From assembly GCF_013317235.1 (NCBI RefSeq), contig NZ_WLCM01000011.1:1-64000 (forward strand): a stretch of DNA of 64,000 bases. The letters run 5' to 3'. Made by a program: the position numbers and the translations under genes. Of the stretch, positions 57,303 through 64,000 are shown one piece after another. Every line of letters starts with the position of its first letter. The stretch's first letter is position 1. Source of the stretch: Leisingera sp. ANG59. GTDB lineage: Bacteria; Pseudomonadota; Alphaproteobacteria; Rhodobacterales; Rhodobacteraceae. Under the pieces are notes generated by a model that was not told the origin of the DNA, made no database searches, and worked only from the letters and a program-made list of their open reading frames with translations.

Positions 57303-57392
57303 TGGCGGAGACGATGGGATTCGAACCCACGAGACGGTTTCCCGCCTACTCCCTTAGCAGGGGAGCGCCTTCGACCACTCGGCCACGTCTCC
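57303..57392 (-). tRNA. tRNA-Ser (anticodon GCT)
   Basis: Read on the minus strand, the gene starts GGAGACGTGGCCGAG. It has a D-loop, the anticodon loop CTGCTAA (anticodon GCT, reads AGC/AGU), a long variable arm (GGCGGGAAACC) and the T-loop GGTTCGAATCC, and it ends CGTCTCC-G-CCA. The 7-base acceptor stem pairs perfectly and CCA is encoded. The 90-base length with a long variable arm is right for serine. Confidence 0.97.
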
Positions 57393-58226: not shown

Positions 58227-59525
58227 TTACGCCCGCGAAACGTCGGGAGTTTTCAGCACATGGGGAGTATCATAGGCCTCCAGATCAATTTGATTTTCTG
58301 ACTTCGCAATAAGCACAGTGCAGGCTGCGTCTCCCGTCACATTGAGCGACGTGCGCGCCATGTCGAGAATGCGATCGATGCCTGCAATGATGGCAACACC
58401 TTCCAGAGGCAAGCCGACGGAGGTCAGAACCAGCGACAGCATCACGAGCCCGGCACCAGGAACGCCGGCGGTGCCGATAGAGGCAAGAGTCGATGTCAGA
58501 ATAATTGTGACATACTCAGACATGCCCAGCTCTACCCCGAAGGCCTGCGCCACAAAGAGAGCGGCAACACCCTGATACATGGCGGTTCCGTCCATGTTGA
58601 TCGTCGCGCCAAGGGGCAGAGTGAAACTCGCAACTGACCGGTTCACACCCAGGTTCTGCTGCACAGCAGTCATCGTGACCGGAAGTGTCCCGGAAGAGGA
58701 CGTGCTGGTGAAAGCCACGATCTGCGGTTCAATGATGCCCTGGAAAAAGCGGACCGGGTTCAGGCGGGCGAAGACCGAAACTAGACCGCCATACACAATC
58801 AACGCATGCAGGACGCAGCCGATATAAAGCGCGGCAATGACGGTTCCCAACGGCAACAGAAGATCAAGCCCGTAGGTTCCGGCGACCCAGGCCATCAGCG
58901 CAAACACGCCATAAGGGGCAAAACTGATCACAATCTCCGTCAGCTTCAGGATAACTGAATTCAGGGCTTCAAAGAACTCCCGCACCGGCTTGCCTGCTTC
59001 GCCAACCAGGTTGATGGCCAGGCCGAACATGATTGCGAAAAAGATGATCTGCAGAACGTTTCCGTCTGCGGCGGCGGCAACCGGATTCTTCGGGACGATC
59101 CCGATGAGCTGCTGAATGAAGGGCGGAGCGGTCTTGGGTTCCATTGCGGCGGCGGTGCTCAGGTCGATGCCCGCGCCAGGTTGCATCAGCAATCCCAAAA
59201 CCAGGCCGATCGTGATCGCAAATGCGGTGGTGCCCAGATAGAAAACGATCGACTTCAGGCCAATTCGCCCCATGCGCGCCATGTCGCTGACGGATGTCAT
59301 GCCGCACACGAGCGACACGAAGATCAGCGGGACAATCAGCATTTTGATGAGCGACAGGAACAAGGTCCCGATGTTCTTGATCATGCCGGCAATTGCCTGG
59401 TTGCCGGTTGCGTTCAGCAGAACGCCTGTAATCACCCCAAGGACAAGTGCGATCACGATTTGCTTCCACAAAAGCATGTTTCTCCAAGGTGCCAAAAACC
59501 CTGTTTTTTGACTGGTATTCGCCAT
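58227..59525 (-). CDS. dicarboxylate/amino acid:cation symporter (DAACS, GltP/DctA-like)
   Basis: The 432-residue membrane protein belongs to the DAACS family, which takes up glutamate, aspartate or C4-dicarboxylates with H+ or Na+. Landmarks are MIKNIGTLFLSLIKMLIVPLIFVSLVCGM, the serine-rich re-entrant loop AFTSTSSSGTLPVTM, LPLGATINMDGTAMYQGVAALFVAQ, and the substrate-binding end AGIDRILDMARTSLNVTGDAACTVLIAKSE. GGGAGG lies 6 bases before the ATG at 59525. The gene belongs to the aspartate module and is preceded by the 33-base palindrome at 59620-59652. Confidence 0.94.
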   Translation of the reverse strand: MANTSQKTGFLAPWRNMLLWKQIVIALVLGVITGVLLNATGNQAIAGMIKNIGTLFLSLIKMLIVPLIFVSLVCGMTSVSDMARMGRIGLKSIVFYLGTTAFAITIGLVLGLLMQPGAGIDLSTAAAMEPKTAPPFIQQLIGIVPKNPVAAAADGNVLQIIFFAIMFGLAINLVGEAGKPVREFFEALNSVILKLTEIVISFAPYGVFALMAWVAGTYGLDLLLPLGTVIAALYIGCVLHALIVYGGLVSVFARLNPVRFFQGIIEPQIVAFTSTSSSGTLPVTMTAVQQNLGVNRSVASFTLPLGATINMDGTAMYQGVAALFVAQAFGVELGMSEYVTIILTSTLASIGTAGVPGAGLVMLSLVLTSVGLPLEGVAIIAGIDRILDMARTSLNVTGDAACTVLIAKSENQIDLEAYDTPHVLKTPDVSRA

Positions 59526-59619
59526 AAGGACCTCCCTTTCCAAGGCAGCCAACCGGATCGGGCTGCCGGCAGTCGCAGCATGGTACCAGTTCGATGACAG
59601 GCAGCGTCGCGCAAACATG

Positions 59620-59652
59620 GAAAGGGCGTTGCAAACTTTGCAACGCCCTTTC
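59620..59652. promoter_or_regulatory. 33-bp perfect palindrome upstream of the symporter
   Basis: The sequence is symmetric about base 59636 over 16 bases on each side. Its core GTTGCAAACTTTGCAAC (59628-59644) is identical to the site at 62647-62663. It lies 95 bases upstream of the symporter start and 41 bases after the racemase stop, so it could be an operator, a terminator stem, or both. Confidence 0.7.
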
Positions 59653-59692
59653 GGCTTCCAGGAAGAAACCGCTTTCAGCCAGGGTCAGGACC

Positions 59693-61126
59693 CTAGGCCT
59701 TTGCCAGGTGCACGCATTTACGGGCCAGCACATCGGTTGGGTCAACGGCCAGCACCCCCAGATCGCCGGCGCCCGCTGTCACAAGGATAGGGAGTTCCGT
59801 GCAGCCGAGAATGACCGCCTCGGCGCCGCGCCCAACCAGATGGGAAAAGGCCCTTGTTATCTGCTCCTTGCAAAGACCCTCGGTGTGCCCAGCCTTGACG
59901 CCGGCCGGGCCGTATATGCACTCCATGACCAAGTTTTGATGCTGCTCATCGGGAACGATATGGCAAAGGCCAGCCTCCTCAAGCGCCTGCTGATACAGGC
60001 CGCTTCGGATTGTTCCATCGGTGCCGAGAATCCCGACCGTGCGCGTCCCGGGAGAGTTTTCCCTGATGTGGTCAGTAGCCGCTGACAGAATACTAATGAT
60101 CGGTATGCCTAGATGGCGCTGGATACGATCGACATAGGCGTGAGCAGTGTTGCAGGGGATGACCAGAATATCGGCCCCGCCGCGTTCCAGCTTCTTGCAG
60201 GTGGAATAGAGGGCGACCGTCGGATCGGTTCCTGATCCCACCAGGTTTTCAGTCCGGTCAGGGATTTGCGGATTTTGTTCGACCAGCACCTTGATGTGAT
60301 CCTGATCGCAGGCGGCCTCTGTTCCCTTGACCAGTTTGGAAAGGAAATCCACCGTCGCGGCAGGTCCGACACCGCCAACCACCCCGACCTTGAACCGGCG
60401 GCGGCGGCCTGGATGCGTCTCCTTCAGCGCATGTTCTGCATAAACCGCCGCCGTGTCGATGGCTGTCATCCCGTCCGGCAGGTCAAGCTGATCAAGCAGC
60501 AGGGGCAATTCGGAAAGCCCGGGCACAAAAACCGCCGCCCCCTGCTCCGAAAGGCTGGCAAGGGCTGCGTTGATAGGTTGCAGCACCTCCTGCCTGCGGT
60601 TGCCTGTTTTGAAGCCGTTGCCGCCATAGACCGCCTCCATCACTGCGCTTTCCAAATCCGCGGCGGGATAGACAACCTGTACATCCTCGCCGAACAGGTT
60701 CTCGAACAGGCCGTTTTCCCTGACAAAAGGCGTTGCGATGACGCCAATTTTCTCCGGTTGGGGACTCAGTTTCGCGACGGCAGCTGTGATTGCCCCGGTC
60801 ATGCTGATCAGCTTCAGCTCCAGCTCATCTTCCAGCTCATGCAGGAAACTATGCGTGACAAAACAAGGGAGCAGTGCCGCATCGCATCCATCCCGCTCCA
60901 TACGTGACAGCGTATCAAATACGTAAAGCTTCCGGTGGGTGGGGATGTAGGCCGGCTCCTGGGGGGAGACAGGTTCGCGCAGCGGTTTCTGGTGGAATAT
61001 CAGCTCCCGGTGATCCTCCTCCGACCTGACTGGGGTCATCTGCACAATTCTGTTCAGCAGGTCGGCCCCGGCGAGGGCGCCCAGGCCTCCGACAATTCCC
61101 AGGCGGAGAGACTGGTTTCTGTTCAT
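59693..61126 (-). CDS. tandem (duplicated) Asp/Glu racemase family protein
   Basis: The 477-residue protein is two Asp/Glu racemase domains in one chain (about 1-240 and 245-477), each starting with a strand plus Gly-rich loop (LGIVGGLGALAGADLL and VGVVGGVGPAATVDFL). The C-terminal domain has both catalytic cysteines: PCNTAHAY (Cys325) and ILGCTELPIL (Cys442). The N-terminal domain keeps Cys88 (PCFVTHSF), but the second motif is VPGLSELPLL, with leucine in the place of cysteine. Single-domain relatives of about 230 residues interconvert L- and D-aspartate. The start overlaps the aspA stop by one base (TGATG), so the two are translationally coupled. Confidence 0.9.
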   Translation of the reverse strand: MNRNQSLRLGIVGGLGALAGADLLNRIVQMTPVRSEEDHRELIFHQKPLREPVSPQEPAYIPTHRKLYVFDTLSRMERDGCDAALLPCFVTHSFLHELEDELELKLISMTGAITAAVAKLSPQPEKIGVIATPFVRENGLFENLFGEDVQVVYPAADLESAVMEAVYGGNGFKTGNRRQEVLQPINAALASLSEQGAAVFVPGLSELPLLLDQLDLPDGMTAIDTAAVYAEHALKETHPGRRRRFKVGVVGGVGPAATVDFLSKLVKGTEAACDQDHIKVLVEQNPQIPDRTENLVGSGTDPTVALYSTCKKLERGGADILVIPCNTAHAYVDRIQRHLGIPIISILSAATDHIRENSPGTRTVGILGTDGTIRSGLYQQALEEAGLCHIVPDEQHQNLVMECIYGPAGVKAGHTEGLCKEQITRAFSHLVGRGAEAVILGCTELPILVTAGAGDLGVLAVDPTDVLARKCVHLAKA

Positions 61127-62523
61127 CAGGCGTTCTCCGGTATCCTGCCCTGAAGATGTTTCAGGGCTGTCTCGGCCAATTCTTCCGGCAATGCCGGCAG
61201 TGCAGCGGATTGCAGACTCAGACCGTTTGCCTGCGCATATTTTGCAAGTTTGGTCGCCGCTTCATAGCCGATTACGGGGGCGAGCGCAGTTACTTGCACA
61301 AGACTATTACTCAGCAGAAACTGGCATCTTTCCTCATCTGCGACGATACCATCCACGCACCGGGTCCGCAGCACGTTCATTGCGCTGGTCAGAGATCCCA
61401 TTGTTTCCAGCACCTTATGGATAATGACAGGTTCCATCGCGTTGAGCTGAAACTGGCCTGCCTCGGCGGCCATCGTGACAGTCAGATCATTGCCGATCGC
61501 CTGGTAGCAAACTTGATTGACCACTTCCGGAATGACCGGGTTCACCTTTCCAGGCATAATCGAAGACCCCGCCTGGACCGCCGGCAGAATGATTTCGCCA
61601 ATCCCCGCCCGTGGCCCCGAGGACATGAGGCGCAAATCGTTGCAAATCTTGGACAGTTTGATGCCAACCCGCTTGAGCGTGCTGGAAAACATCACAAAGG
61701 CGCCCAGATCAGAGGAGGCCTCGATCAGGTCCGGGGCCAGTTGAAGCGGCTCCCCCGTTATTTCGCGCAGGTGCGCAACAGCTGCTTCGCCAAAGTGCGC
61801 AGGGGCATTGATGCCGGTGCCAATTGCCGTGCCGCCAAGGTTCACTTCTGTCAGAAGGCGGGAAAGGTCGCAGAGCCGGTCTGCGTCCTCGTTTATCGTC
61901 GTGGCATACCCCCGGAACTCGGCGCCAAGCGGCATCGGCACAGCATCCTGAAGCTGCGTGCGCCCGACTTTCGTGATATGTTGAAACTCGGATGCCTTGA
62001 TGCCGAATGAGTTGGTCAGCCCATGCATTGCCTCAATGAGAGGGGTGATCCGCGAGAGGACGGCAAGCCGGATTGCGGTGGGATAAACATCGTTTGTGGA
62101 TTGCGAGCGGTTCACGTCATCATTCGGGTGAAGCCGGCCGTAGGCGCCAAAATCCGCACCGAGCATCTTCAGCCCGAGATTCGCAATGACCTCGTTGACA
62201 TTCATATTTGTCGATGTGCCAGCTCCGCCTTGCATGACATCGATAACAAACTGATCGTGATGGCGGCCGCCGATGATCTCATCGCAGATACCGGCAATGG
62301 CTGCCGCCTTCTCGGCGGGCAAGGCGCCGAGATCCCGGTTCGCCAGCGCACAGGCCTTTTTGACGGAGGCCAGGCCAGTGATCAATTCCGGATAATGGCT
62401 GATTGACACTCCGGTAATCGGGAAATTCTCCAGCGCCCGCTGGGTCTGACTGCCCCAAGCGGCTGCCAGCGGGATCTTCACCGGGCCAAGACTGTCGGAC
62501 TCTGTTCGGAATTTGCTCATCAT
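61126..62523 (-). CDS. aspA: aspartate ammonia-lyase
   Basis: The 465-residue enzyme of the fumarase/aspartase superfamily deaminates L-aspartate to fumarate and ammonia. It has the signature GSSIMPGKVNP (319-329), QGGAGTSTNMNVNEVIANLG, HPNDDVNRSQSTNDVYPTA and GRTQLQDAVPMPLG. Aspartase and class II fumarase are similar; GGAGTSTNMNVNE and the operon with an aspartate-type racemase and transporter favour aspartase. Two adjacent ATGs occur at the start; the first is used. It is divergent from a LysR gene. Confidence 0.9.
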   Translation of the reverse strand: MMSKFRTESDSLGPVKIPLAAAWGSQTQRALENFPITGVSISHYPELITGLASVKKACALANRDLGALPAEKAAAIAGICDEIIGGRHHDQFVIDVMQGGAGTSTNMNVNEVIANLGLKMLGADFGAYGRLHPNDDVNRSQSTNDVYPTAIRLAVLSRITPLIEAMHGLTNSFGIKASEFQHITKVGRTQLQDAVPMPLGAEFRGYATTINEDADRLCDLSRLLTEVNLGGTAIGTGINAPAHFGEAAVAHLREITGEPLQLAPDLIEASSDLGAFVMFSSTLKRVGIKLSKICNDLRLMSSGPRAGIGEIILPAVQAGSSIMPGKVNPVIPEVVNQVCYQAIGNDLTVTMAAEAGQFQLNAMEPVIIHKVLETMGSLTSAMNVLRTRCVDGIVADEERCQFLLSNSLVQVTALAPVIGYEAATKLAKYAQANGLSLQSAALPALPEELAETALKHLQGRIPENA

Positions 62524-62646
62524 CTGGGACCTTTTTCTGCGGTCTTGCAGCCAGCAACTGGAAACGCGGAGCCGGGAGACCGTTATAGTGCAGGCCGGAA
62601 CTTACTGCTGCCCATCCCATGCAGCCATGACAACTGGCGCAAGGAT

Positions 62647-62663
62647 GTTGCAAACTTTGCAAC
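62647..62663. promoter_or_regulatory. LysR operator candidate between aspA and its regulator
   Basis: GTTGCAAACTTTGCAAC is a perfect 17-base palindrome with a T-N11-A pattern, 44 bases before the LysR start and 124 bases before aspA. It is identical to the core of the 59620-59652 palindrome. Confidence 0.75.
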
Positions 62664-62706
62664 CAATTCCTACCATTCAGGGACCCCTTTCAGATGGAGA
62701 AGACAG

Positions 62707-63600
62707 GTGGAAATCGACTGGCTGGAAGACTTCTTGGCCCTTTCGGCCGCGGGTGTGTTTGCCCGCGCCGCGGATGCGCGGAACATAAGCCAGTCAGCTT
62801 TTACGCGACGGATCAAAAACCTGGAAAACTGGACGGGGACACCATTGTTTGACAGGAGCGTGCACCCTGTCGAATTGACCGCGGCAGGCAAGGCTTTCAA
62901 GCAAACCGCCATCGACACAGTTGCGGCGCTGAAGCAATCCAAAAGCGATATCCGCAGCCTGTCCCGCCAGGAAGCTTCCGTGCTGGACTTCGTCGCGCTT
63001 CACACCCTGGCCATTTCCTTCTTTCCGGCGTGGCTCACGCGCATGTCCAGTCACCTTGGACCCATCAAATCCAGGCTGGTTGCGGAAAACTTCTCAGGCT
63101 GCGCGGAGGCCATACTGTGCGGAAGCGCAGACTTCATGCTGTGCTACTACCATCCCGCTGTCCCCACGATTTCTGATGAGAGCCGGTACCCGTCCTCGAC
63201 GATTGCCAAAGACCGGATCATAGCTGTCAGCAGTGCCGATGCTGACGGGCGCGCCAAGTTCAGCTTGGAGGGCGATGACCCGGTGCCGCTACTATCCTAT
63301 TCCCCCGACACCTTTTTGGGCCGGGTGTCCCAGGTTTGCCTGGAACGGGGACACTTAAGCGGCAAAGTGGAGCCCATCTACGAGAACTCGGTTGCTGAAG
63401 CGCTCAAATCCGCCTGTCTCGCCGGGCTGGGAATTGCTTTCCTGCCCGAAGGGGCCGCGGAGCGGGAGCTGAAAGACGGAACACTGCACAAAATCAGCCG
63501 GCCGGAATTCGAACTCGTCATTGACATAAAGCTTTACCGTTCAATCGAACGTTCCAGAGCAGAACTGGAACGCTTCTGGATGCTGGCCCAAAACCTTTGA
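62707..63600 (+). CDS. LysR family transcriptional regulator of the aspartate module
   Basis: The 297-residue protein starts with GTG, preceded by GGAGAAGACAG. The HTH is WLEDFLALSAAGVFARAADARNISQSAFTRRIKNLENWTG. The effector domain includes LLSYSPDTFLGRVSQVC and YENSVAEALKSACLAGLGIAFLPEGA, and the chain ends LYRSIERSRAELERFWMLAQ. It is divergent from aspA, with a palindromic site between them, and is similar to the LysR fragment convergent with it at 63616. Confidence 0.92.
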   Translation: MEIDWLEDFLALSAAGVFARAADARNISQSAFTRRIKNLENWTGTPLFDRSVHPVELTAAGKAFKQTAIDTVAALKQSKSDIRSLSRQEASVLDFVALHTLAISFFPAWLTRMSSHLGPIKSRLVAENFSGCAEAILCGSADFMLCYYHPAVPTISDESRYPSSTIAKDRIIAVSSADADGRAKFSLEGDDPVPLLSYSPDTFLGRVSQVCLERGHLSGKVEPIYENSVAEALKSACLAGLGIAFLPEGAAERELKDGTLHKISRPEFELVIDIKLYRSIERSRAELERFWMLAQNL

Positions 63601-63615
63601 AAACCGCAGCAGAGT

Positions 63616-64000
63616 TTACCGCGCTGCTGAGGCTGCGCTTTCTGCCAGCGTCCAAAACCGCTCCACGGACGGGCGGCTTCTTTCAATCGATCGGTACAGC
63701 TTGATGGTCATGCGGCGTTCAGAAGCGTCGTCGCTGATGCGCGCAAGCTTACCCTCATTAAGCATTGGCAGGATTGTCATCCTTGGCAGCCAGGCAATTC
63801 CCAGCCCTTCCGCACAGGCTGCTTTCTGAGCCTCAGCCACCGAGTTTTCGCAGCGGATCTCCAGTTTTTCTGCCACCCCCGCCCGCTTTATGGAAATCTC
63901 GCTCAGCCGCCCCAGAAAGCTCTCCGGGGAATACGCCAGAAACGGCAGTTTGCCTTCCTGATCGAAACGGTAGAGCGCGTTGCCGGAATTGTCGGTGCCG
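63616..64000 (-). CDS. LysR family regulator, C-terminal part (start outside window)
   Basis: About 127 residues of the effector domain are visible, open to the window edge. FLAYSPESFLGRL, IRCENSVAEAQKAACAEGLGIAWLPRM and KLYRSIERSRPSVERFWTLAE align with the same segments of the LysR at 62707-63600, so the two are paralogues lying tail to tail, 15 bases apart. No DNA-binding part is in the window. Confidence 0.88.
   Translation of the reverse strand, partial: GTDNSGNALYRFDQEGKLPFLAYSPESFLGRLSEISIKRAGVAEKLEIRCENSVAEAQKAACAEGLGIAWLPRMTILPMLNEGKLARISDDASERRMTIKLYRSIERSRPSVERFWTLAESAASAAR

Follow-up and report, generated by a model that had tools for sequence, protein, structure and literature searches.

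A putative D-/L-aspartate utilisation module in Leisingera

We found that one end of a 64,000-nucleotide stretch of the genome of Leisingera sp. ANG59 (hereafter the window; C12:1-64000 in an assembly of 5.33 Mb and 108 contigs) probably carries an inducible module for the utilisation of D- and L-aspartate, as judged from its sequence. The module comprises a DAACS symporter, a two-domain racemase, an aspartate ammonia-lyase (AspA) and two paralogous LysR-type regulators, the second of which extends beyond the window, together with a 17-bp dyad that recurs at three promoters. The genes, their families, the sites and their conservation in relatives can be read directly from the DNA, and the features are as follows:

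58227-59525, minus strand: DAACS (SDF family) amino acid symporter, 432 residues (Pfam SDF, 446.5 bits, above the gathering score)
59620-59652, no strand: perfect palindrome of 33 bp, flanked by the stop of the racemase (59693) and the start of the symporter
59628-59644, no strand: putative operator copy 2, GTTGCAAACTTTGCAAC, upstream of the symporter; exact 17-mer, conserved in relatives
59693-61126, minus strand: two-domain Asp/Glu-family racemase, 477 residues (Pfam Asp_Glu_race in two stretches, above the gathering score)
59693-60403, minus strand: racemase C-half; Cys325 and Cys442 both present
60404-61126, minus strand: racemase N-half; Cys88 kept, Gly203 at the position of the second cysteine
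61124-61128, minus strand: TGATG stop/start overlap of the aspA and racemase genes (read from the sequence)
61126-62523, minus strand: aspartate ammonia-lyase (aspA), 465 residues (above the Pfam gathering score; NCBIfam PRK12273, 659.8 bits, cut-off 510)
62647-62663, no strand: putative operator copy 1, in the gap that separates aspA from the divergent lysR1; exact 17-mer
62707-63600, plus strand: LysR1, LysR-type regulator, GTG start, begins GTGGAAATCGAC (Pfam HTH_1 and LysR_substrate above gathering score)
63616-64000 and on to C12:64524, minus strand: LysR2, paralogous LysR-type regulator, with its 3' part in the window
C12:64578-64594, beyond the window, no strand: putative operator copy 3, upstream of lysR2; one mismatch

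In the mechanism that we propose, the symporter would import aspartate of either hand, the racemase would convert D- to L-aspartate by means of the complete cysteine pair of its C-half, and AspA would split L-aspartate into fumarate and ammonium. The two LysR proteins, with similar DNA-binding domains, would bind TTGC-N7-GCAA at the promoters of aspA-racemase/lysR1, of the symporter and of lysR2, and each would presumably respond to a ligand of its own, perhaps L-aspartate for one and D-aspartate for the other. The substrates, the binding, the activation and the ligand of each regulator are what we infer from the gene content. A first-pass annotation of the window had already proposed uptake, racemisation and deamination to fumarate; this outline is right as the best reading of the genes, except that it invoked a single LysR protein. 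Peptidoglycan or marine dissolved organic matter, which it named as sources of D-aspartate, are conjecture.

The symporter likely starts at ATG 59525, which is preceded by GGGAGG and conserved in relatives, a longer open reading frame from 59618 being disfavoured. Its best sequence match in the PDB, 9bgz (467 bits), is named 'Aspartate transporter', and its stretch ILDMARTSLNVTGD retains the Asp and the Arg that 6bat, a glutamate transporter homologue, has in ILDMGRTMVNVTGD, two residues that we take to be involved in aspartate binding. No NCBIfam transporter cut-off was reached among the matches listed; family and PDB match together point to an aspartate transporter. AspA scores 466.8 bits on the fumC model, under its cut-off, and the PDB aspartases 6wng and 1jsw are within its best four matches. 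By its NCBIfam subfamily score it classifies as an aspartate ammonia-lyase, short of a strict equivalog. The TGATG overlap of aspA and the racemase gene, initially described as translational coupling, is confirmed.

A shared dyad and two paralogous LysR regulators

The 17-bp palindrome had been reported to occur exactly twice in the window, once in the gap between aspA and the LysR gene and once inside the 33-bp palindrome upstream of the symporter, and both its number and its placement hold (62647-62663 and 59628-59644). These are also the only exact copies in the whole assembly (backwards control, 0), and a search of the genome for further sites added one copy with a single mismatch, 578 bases beyond the window end, whose centre precedes the start of lysR2 by ∼60 bases. 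None of 100 shuffles of the window reached the four matches observed on both strands at up to three mismatches. A wider regulon was considered and set aside: two-mismatch copies lie at C13, C32 and C54, and those at C13 and C32 are overlapped by open frames that measure 174 and 722 residues from stop to stop. Written as TTGCAA-N3-TTGCAA, the site is found exactly at four places in the assembly, three of them within the module, and, at up to one mismatch, 19 times per strand versus once per strand in the backwards control, the 15 one-mismatch places including C13, C32:152427 and two on C1 (L076, L077); around the fourth exact place (C98:45193), tblastn gave no match to the module proteins in the surrounding 8 kb. 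In dinucleotide-preserving shuffles of three intergenic stretches (5000 of each), TTGCAA-N3-TTGCAA occurred once per stretch, and the looser WTGC-N7-GCAW in 146, 88 and 372 of the shuffles. A promoter scan (3 found, shuffle mean 2.2) did no better than shuffles.

LysR1 and LysR2 are encoded by convergent genes and are 55% identical, agreeing at 53 of 65 N-terminal residues versus 98 of 200 residues of the effector domain; residues 24-39, expected to contain the recognition helix, are identical. The next-best homologue in the genome (at C35) scores 185.6 bits versus 614-624 bits for LysR1 and LysR2. No LysR model passed its NCBIfam cut-off among the matches listed: the best for LysR1, HypT (NF007488), reaches 119.2 bits, far under the cut-off of 301, and the PDB relatives of LysR1 include chains that we take to be HypT or HypT-like. 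The one LysR regulon of the first-pass annotation thus keeps its shared site, which is conserved in relatives, but the count changes from two sites and one regulator to three sites and two paralogous LysR genes, lysR2 having an upstream site of its own.

Conservation of the sites

The dyads are present at the three promoters in all of the six syntenic loci, i.e. the window's own (L006) and L008, L009, L010, L011 and L033: all 18 are of the form TGC-N7-GCA, with a varying centre, the most divergent being those of L009 (ATGCAATGTTTGCAA, TTGCAAAAGATGCAA). Short motifs were observed beside them: an extra half-site, TTGCAA, adjoins the lysR2 dyad in 6/6 loci (L006:7600-7606 and relatives), TTGCG lies downstream of the aspA dyad in 7/7, and the symporter dyad is followed downstream by TTTGC, likewise in 7/7. 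It is possible that they are secondary LysR contacts.

Rearranged versions of the module were found as well. In G313 (L034; racemase 66% identical) the symporter lies in inverted orientation, and dyads are present upstream of the relocated symporter and between lysR and aspA; since the inverted gene has its dyad at the new place, the dyad goes with the symporter promoter. No close LysR2 was found in the 15 kb around this locus. G303 (L083, C116), which gave no racemase match at E ≤ 1e-10, carries symporter-aspA and a divergent lysR; the lysR-symporter gap contains two adjacent dyads, separated by 16 bp. Pseudomonas taeanensis (L012) has a lysR next to symporter-racemase and a gap dyad, ATGCACAAAAAGCAT, of the form ATGC-N7-GCAT. 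Mixed forms (ATGC...GCAA or TTGC...GCAT) occur in L009, L034 and L083. Over nine module loci (135,111 bases) we counted 30 occurrences of WTGC-N7-GCAW, 23 of which lie in the named promoter gaps.

The association of such LysR genes with aspA extends further into the phylum. A profile built from eight LysR rows and searched against 398 genomes of the phylum (E ≤ 1e-60) matched 56 genomes, including the window's own, and the best 29 loci besides the latter (112,452 bases) were surveyed. A divergent aspA is found in 7/29, with ATGC-N7-GCAT between aspA and lysR in all seven, and in L069 aspA lies downstream of lysR with the same dyad in front of it. ATGC-N7-GCAT occurs 16 times in the 29 loci, of which eight are these aspA promoters; among the 21 loci with no aspA match in 3.9 kb, TGC-N7-GCA lies at most 260 bp upstream of lysR in three. 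In a tree of the LysR proteins, whose deep joins are unsafe owing to long branches, the proteins of the Leisingera type group with that of P. taeanensis (99/93).

A racemase with one complete cysteine pair

The racemase is a tandem protein, as had been described, but a single complete cysteine pair is present, in the C-half. In an alignment of 14 racemases (7 Leisingera-type, 1 Pseudomonas and 6 Paraburkholderia/Burkholderia) Cys325 and Cys442, corresponding to the two catalytic cysteines of such racemases, are invariant (14/14), and so are Cys88 and Gly203 of the N-half (14/14). The C-half passes the NCBIfam cut-off for amino acid/aspartate racemases (TIGR00035, 195 bits versus 93.1); the N-half falls under this one (75.3) and under that of the cysteate racemase model CuyB (NF052483; 117.6 versus 190). 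In an AlphaFold2 model (mean predicted local accuracy, pLDDT, 83.1) the best PDB fold match is the aspartate racemase 1jfl, the arrangement of the domains being unsure because the predicted template-modelling score (pTM) is 0.52. 1jfl resembles the C-half in its fold and both cysteines; unlike the enzyme of the window, which is fused to a one-cysteine half, it is a single domain of 228 residues.

Proteins 95-97% identical to this racemase are found in Leisingera sp. JC1, ANG-M7 and SS27 and in one Rhodobacteraceae metagenome-assembled genome (MAG). A two-domain racemase 43% identical is present in Paraburkholderia xenovorans LB400 (L013), next to acyl-CoA dehydrogenase, CoA-transferase and MFS-type genes, as read from open reading frames. 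The other module genes were not found by tblastn (E ≤ 1e-8) in this locus and the other Paraburkholderia/Burkholderia loci with two-domain racemases (L013-L018), and the fusion is therefore not tied to aspartate modules.

Weighing the alternatives

Several observations weigh against an aspartate module of this kind. The sequences give no enantiomer preference, and AspA stays under the stricter TIGR00839 aspA cut-off (582.2 versus 681.2 bits). The dyad of the window is TTGC-N7-GCAA, not ATGC-N7-GCAT, and the loose dyad also occurs away from promoters, as 7/30 occurrences in the nine module loci fall outside the named gaps. One genus supplies 5/7 of the divergent aspA loci of the survey, which thus represent few independent events. 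In the LysR tree, 7/8 of the aspA-linked proteins fall in a separate group (100/100) and that of L069 in a third; because the tree separates these groups, the dyad that they share marks a resemblance within a wider subfamily and does not prove orthology. Finally, the racemase C-half also exceeds the CuyB cut-off (246.7 versus 190 bits).

The module might serve L-aspartate alone, with the racemase working in the biosynthetic direction to supply D-aspartate for another use. Racemases are reversible, and the version in G303, lysR/symporter-aspA, does without one. Yet in the window the overlap of the racemase gene with that of the catabolic lyase and the shared promoter site favour a catabolic role, and we regard the L-only alternative as unlikely.

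We give a similarly low probability to a racemase that acts on cysteate, as CuyB does, or on acidic amino acids broadly, in a module that would serve these rather than D-aspartate in particular. The whole protein does score 359.6 bits on the CuyB model, in two stretches. However, this model does not discriminate, because stretches of PDB chains annotated as aspartate racemases or putative ones reach its cut-off too (1jfl, 251.0; 3s7z, 225.9; 5b19, 190.1). Moreover, the genome of the window also encodes a separate CuyA, at C35, with its own single-domain racemase and TRAP-type genes, whereas the operon of the window holds aspA, and inspection of the module's open reading frames, where the CuyA profile was not run, revealed no cuyA. 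A cysteate module was thus rejected as the principal interpretation. The C35 locus (C35:1-6800, L040), with a CuyA (D-cysteate sulfo-lyase) of 557.7 bits (cut-off 450), a single-domain racemase of 259.1 bits and TRAP-transporter genes, is a probable cysteate locus. It also carries two convergent LysR genes, mirroring the regulator pair of the window.

The palindrome upstream of the symporter has a second face as RNA. Transcribed from the racemase strand, the 33 bp would form a hairpin of 15 pairs with a 3-nt loop and no T-run after it, and the fold of 111 nt has -50 kcal/mol versus a shuffle mean of -35.2 (z = -4.06). Its GC-rich arms, found among the three sites only at that of the symporter, are kept in 6/6 syntenic loci; L009 has one end base changed, and L033 a C to T change after which a G-U pair can still form. 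This does not prove selection on the arms, as conservation is also high downstream of the site. The symporter site of L034 has a short imperfect extension of other sequence in their place. An intrinsic terminator at 59620 was rejected, no T-run being present and the palindrome being absent from the terminator-like sites listed. That the site at 59628 is mainly such a hairpin, serving the aspA-racemase transcript as a 3' end or as a signal for processing, and no operator, is quite improbable in spite of the stable fold and the arms peculiar to this site, given the lack of a terminator signature, a core identical to that of the aspA/lysR1 site, and the inverted symporter of L034, which keeps its upstream dyad with the arms gone. 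The two roles are compatible and could coexist.

Building on the D-/L-aspartate module, a more elaborate scheme can be sketched, which we consider speculative: the sister LysR proteins, one per enantiomer, would compete for or share the three operators and so let the cell compute the D/L ratio at a single DNA site, one operator would double as an RNA hairpin that sets the transcript of aspA and the racemase gene apart from the symporter, and the racemase would be a built-in pseudo-dimer whose one-cysteine half is structural or allosteric.

Distribution and genomic context

Full-length racemases of this type are present in 7/21 genomes of the genus and in 1/295 family-wide genomes (E ≤ 1e-60), the latter being the window's own. 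The same seven genus genomes have an AspA like that of the window (78-100% identical); 7 of the remaining 14 have another aspA, 61-65% identical (E ≤ 1e-150). A broken aspA fragment, ∼52% identical and with one stop, was found at C43:113424-113894 (L081:5431-5892) in the genome of the window, the one genome in which it was sought; G296 has an intact aspA between the same neighbours, a peptidase-like gene and ABC-transporter-like genes as read from open reading frames. Since the broken remnant sits where G296 has an intact gene, this suggests that an older aspA was replaced in the genome of the window, the genomes compared being non-independent.

A tRNA-Ser (GCT) gene at 57303-57392 lies between accA and the module, which, together with the patchy distribution, hints at a variable site. 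The module is flanked by accA and an MCE-type gene (both open reading frame readings). In the five genus genomes searched, accA was found in 5/5 and the MCE-type gene in 3/5, ∼17 kb from accA in G310 and ∼360 kb away in G299; in G313 both are on C1, apart from the module on C2. These five genomes showed no clean empty insertion site.

Leisingera sp. JC1 and ANG-M7 are isolates from bobtail squid, and D-aspartate has been reported from cephalopod tissue. A link of the module to the squid host is thus possible; another relative, the MAG HF-Dia18, has a different origin.

Comparison with known systems

The closest counterpart is the system of Acinetobacter baylyi ADP1 that Bedore et al. described in 2022, in which two LysR regulators, DarR and AalR, reportedly control the use of D- and L-aspartate together with AspA, RacD and AspT/AspY, through a consensus reported as ATGC-N7-GCAT. 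Like the module predicted here, that system reportedly has an aspartate ammonia-lyase, a racemase, aspartate transport, two LysR regulators and a TGC-N7-GCA dyad at several promoters. Unlike it, the window has a compact alphaproteobacterial cluster with TTGC-N7-GCAA dyads, a two-domain racemase, a convergent regulator pair and a putative operator inside a 33-bp palindrome.

A. baylyi is able to use D-aspartate and D-asparagine, according to PMC10269061, which like PMC12455638 cites Bedore et al. On the Shigella SRL island, orf8 and orf9, an aspartate racemase and a transporter, together permit the use of D-aspartate, a pairing also seen in the window; unlike the module, they lie on a pathogenicity island, and the abstract mentions neither aspA nor a LysR pair (PMC6980539). 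In the Arctic marine isolate SM1926 an aspartate racemase gene is up-regulated on D-aspartate and its product is active on D-aspartate in vitro. This is likewise an aspartate racemase of a marine bacterium, but the passages available describe no module or operator and the main text does not mention Leisingera (PMC6965332).

Our literature searches found nothing that combines Leisingera with D-aspartate, or aspartate racemase with LysR and aspartate ammonia-lyase, in a coverage from which subscription papers are mostly missing. No fused two-domain aspartate racemase was found among the matches listed, the searches being too broad to prove its absence.

The kind of system is known from another bacterium, while this layout with its lopsided double racemase forms a new variation on it. 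The regulated use of D-aspartate described for Acinetobacter would extend to Leisingera, here as a single compact cluster, and the module offers a testable regulon of three sites and two paralogous regulators. The fusion of a racemase to a conserved one-cysteine copy of itself makes in addition a tractable enzyme question.

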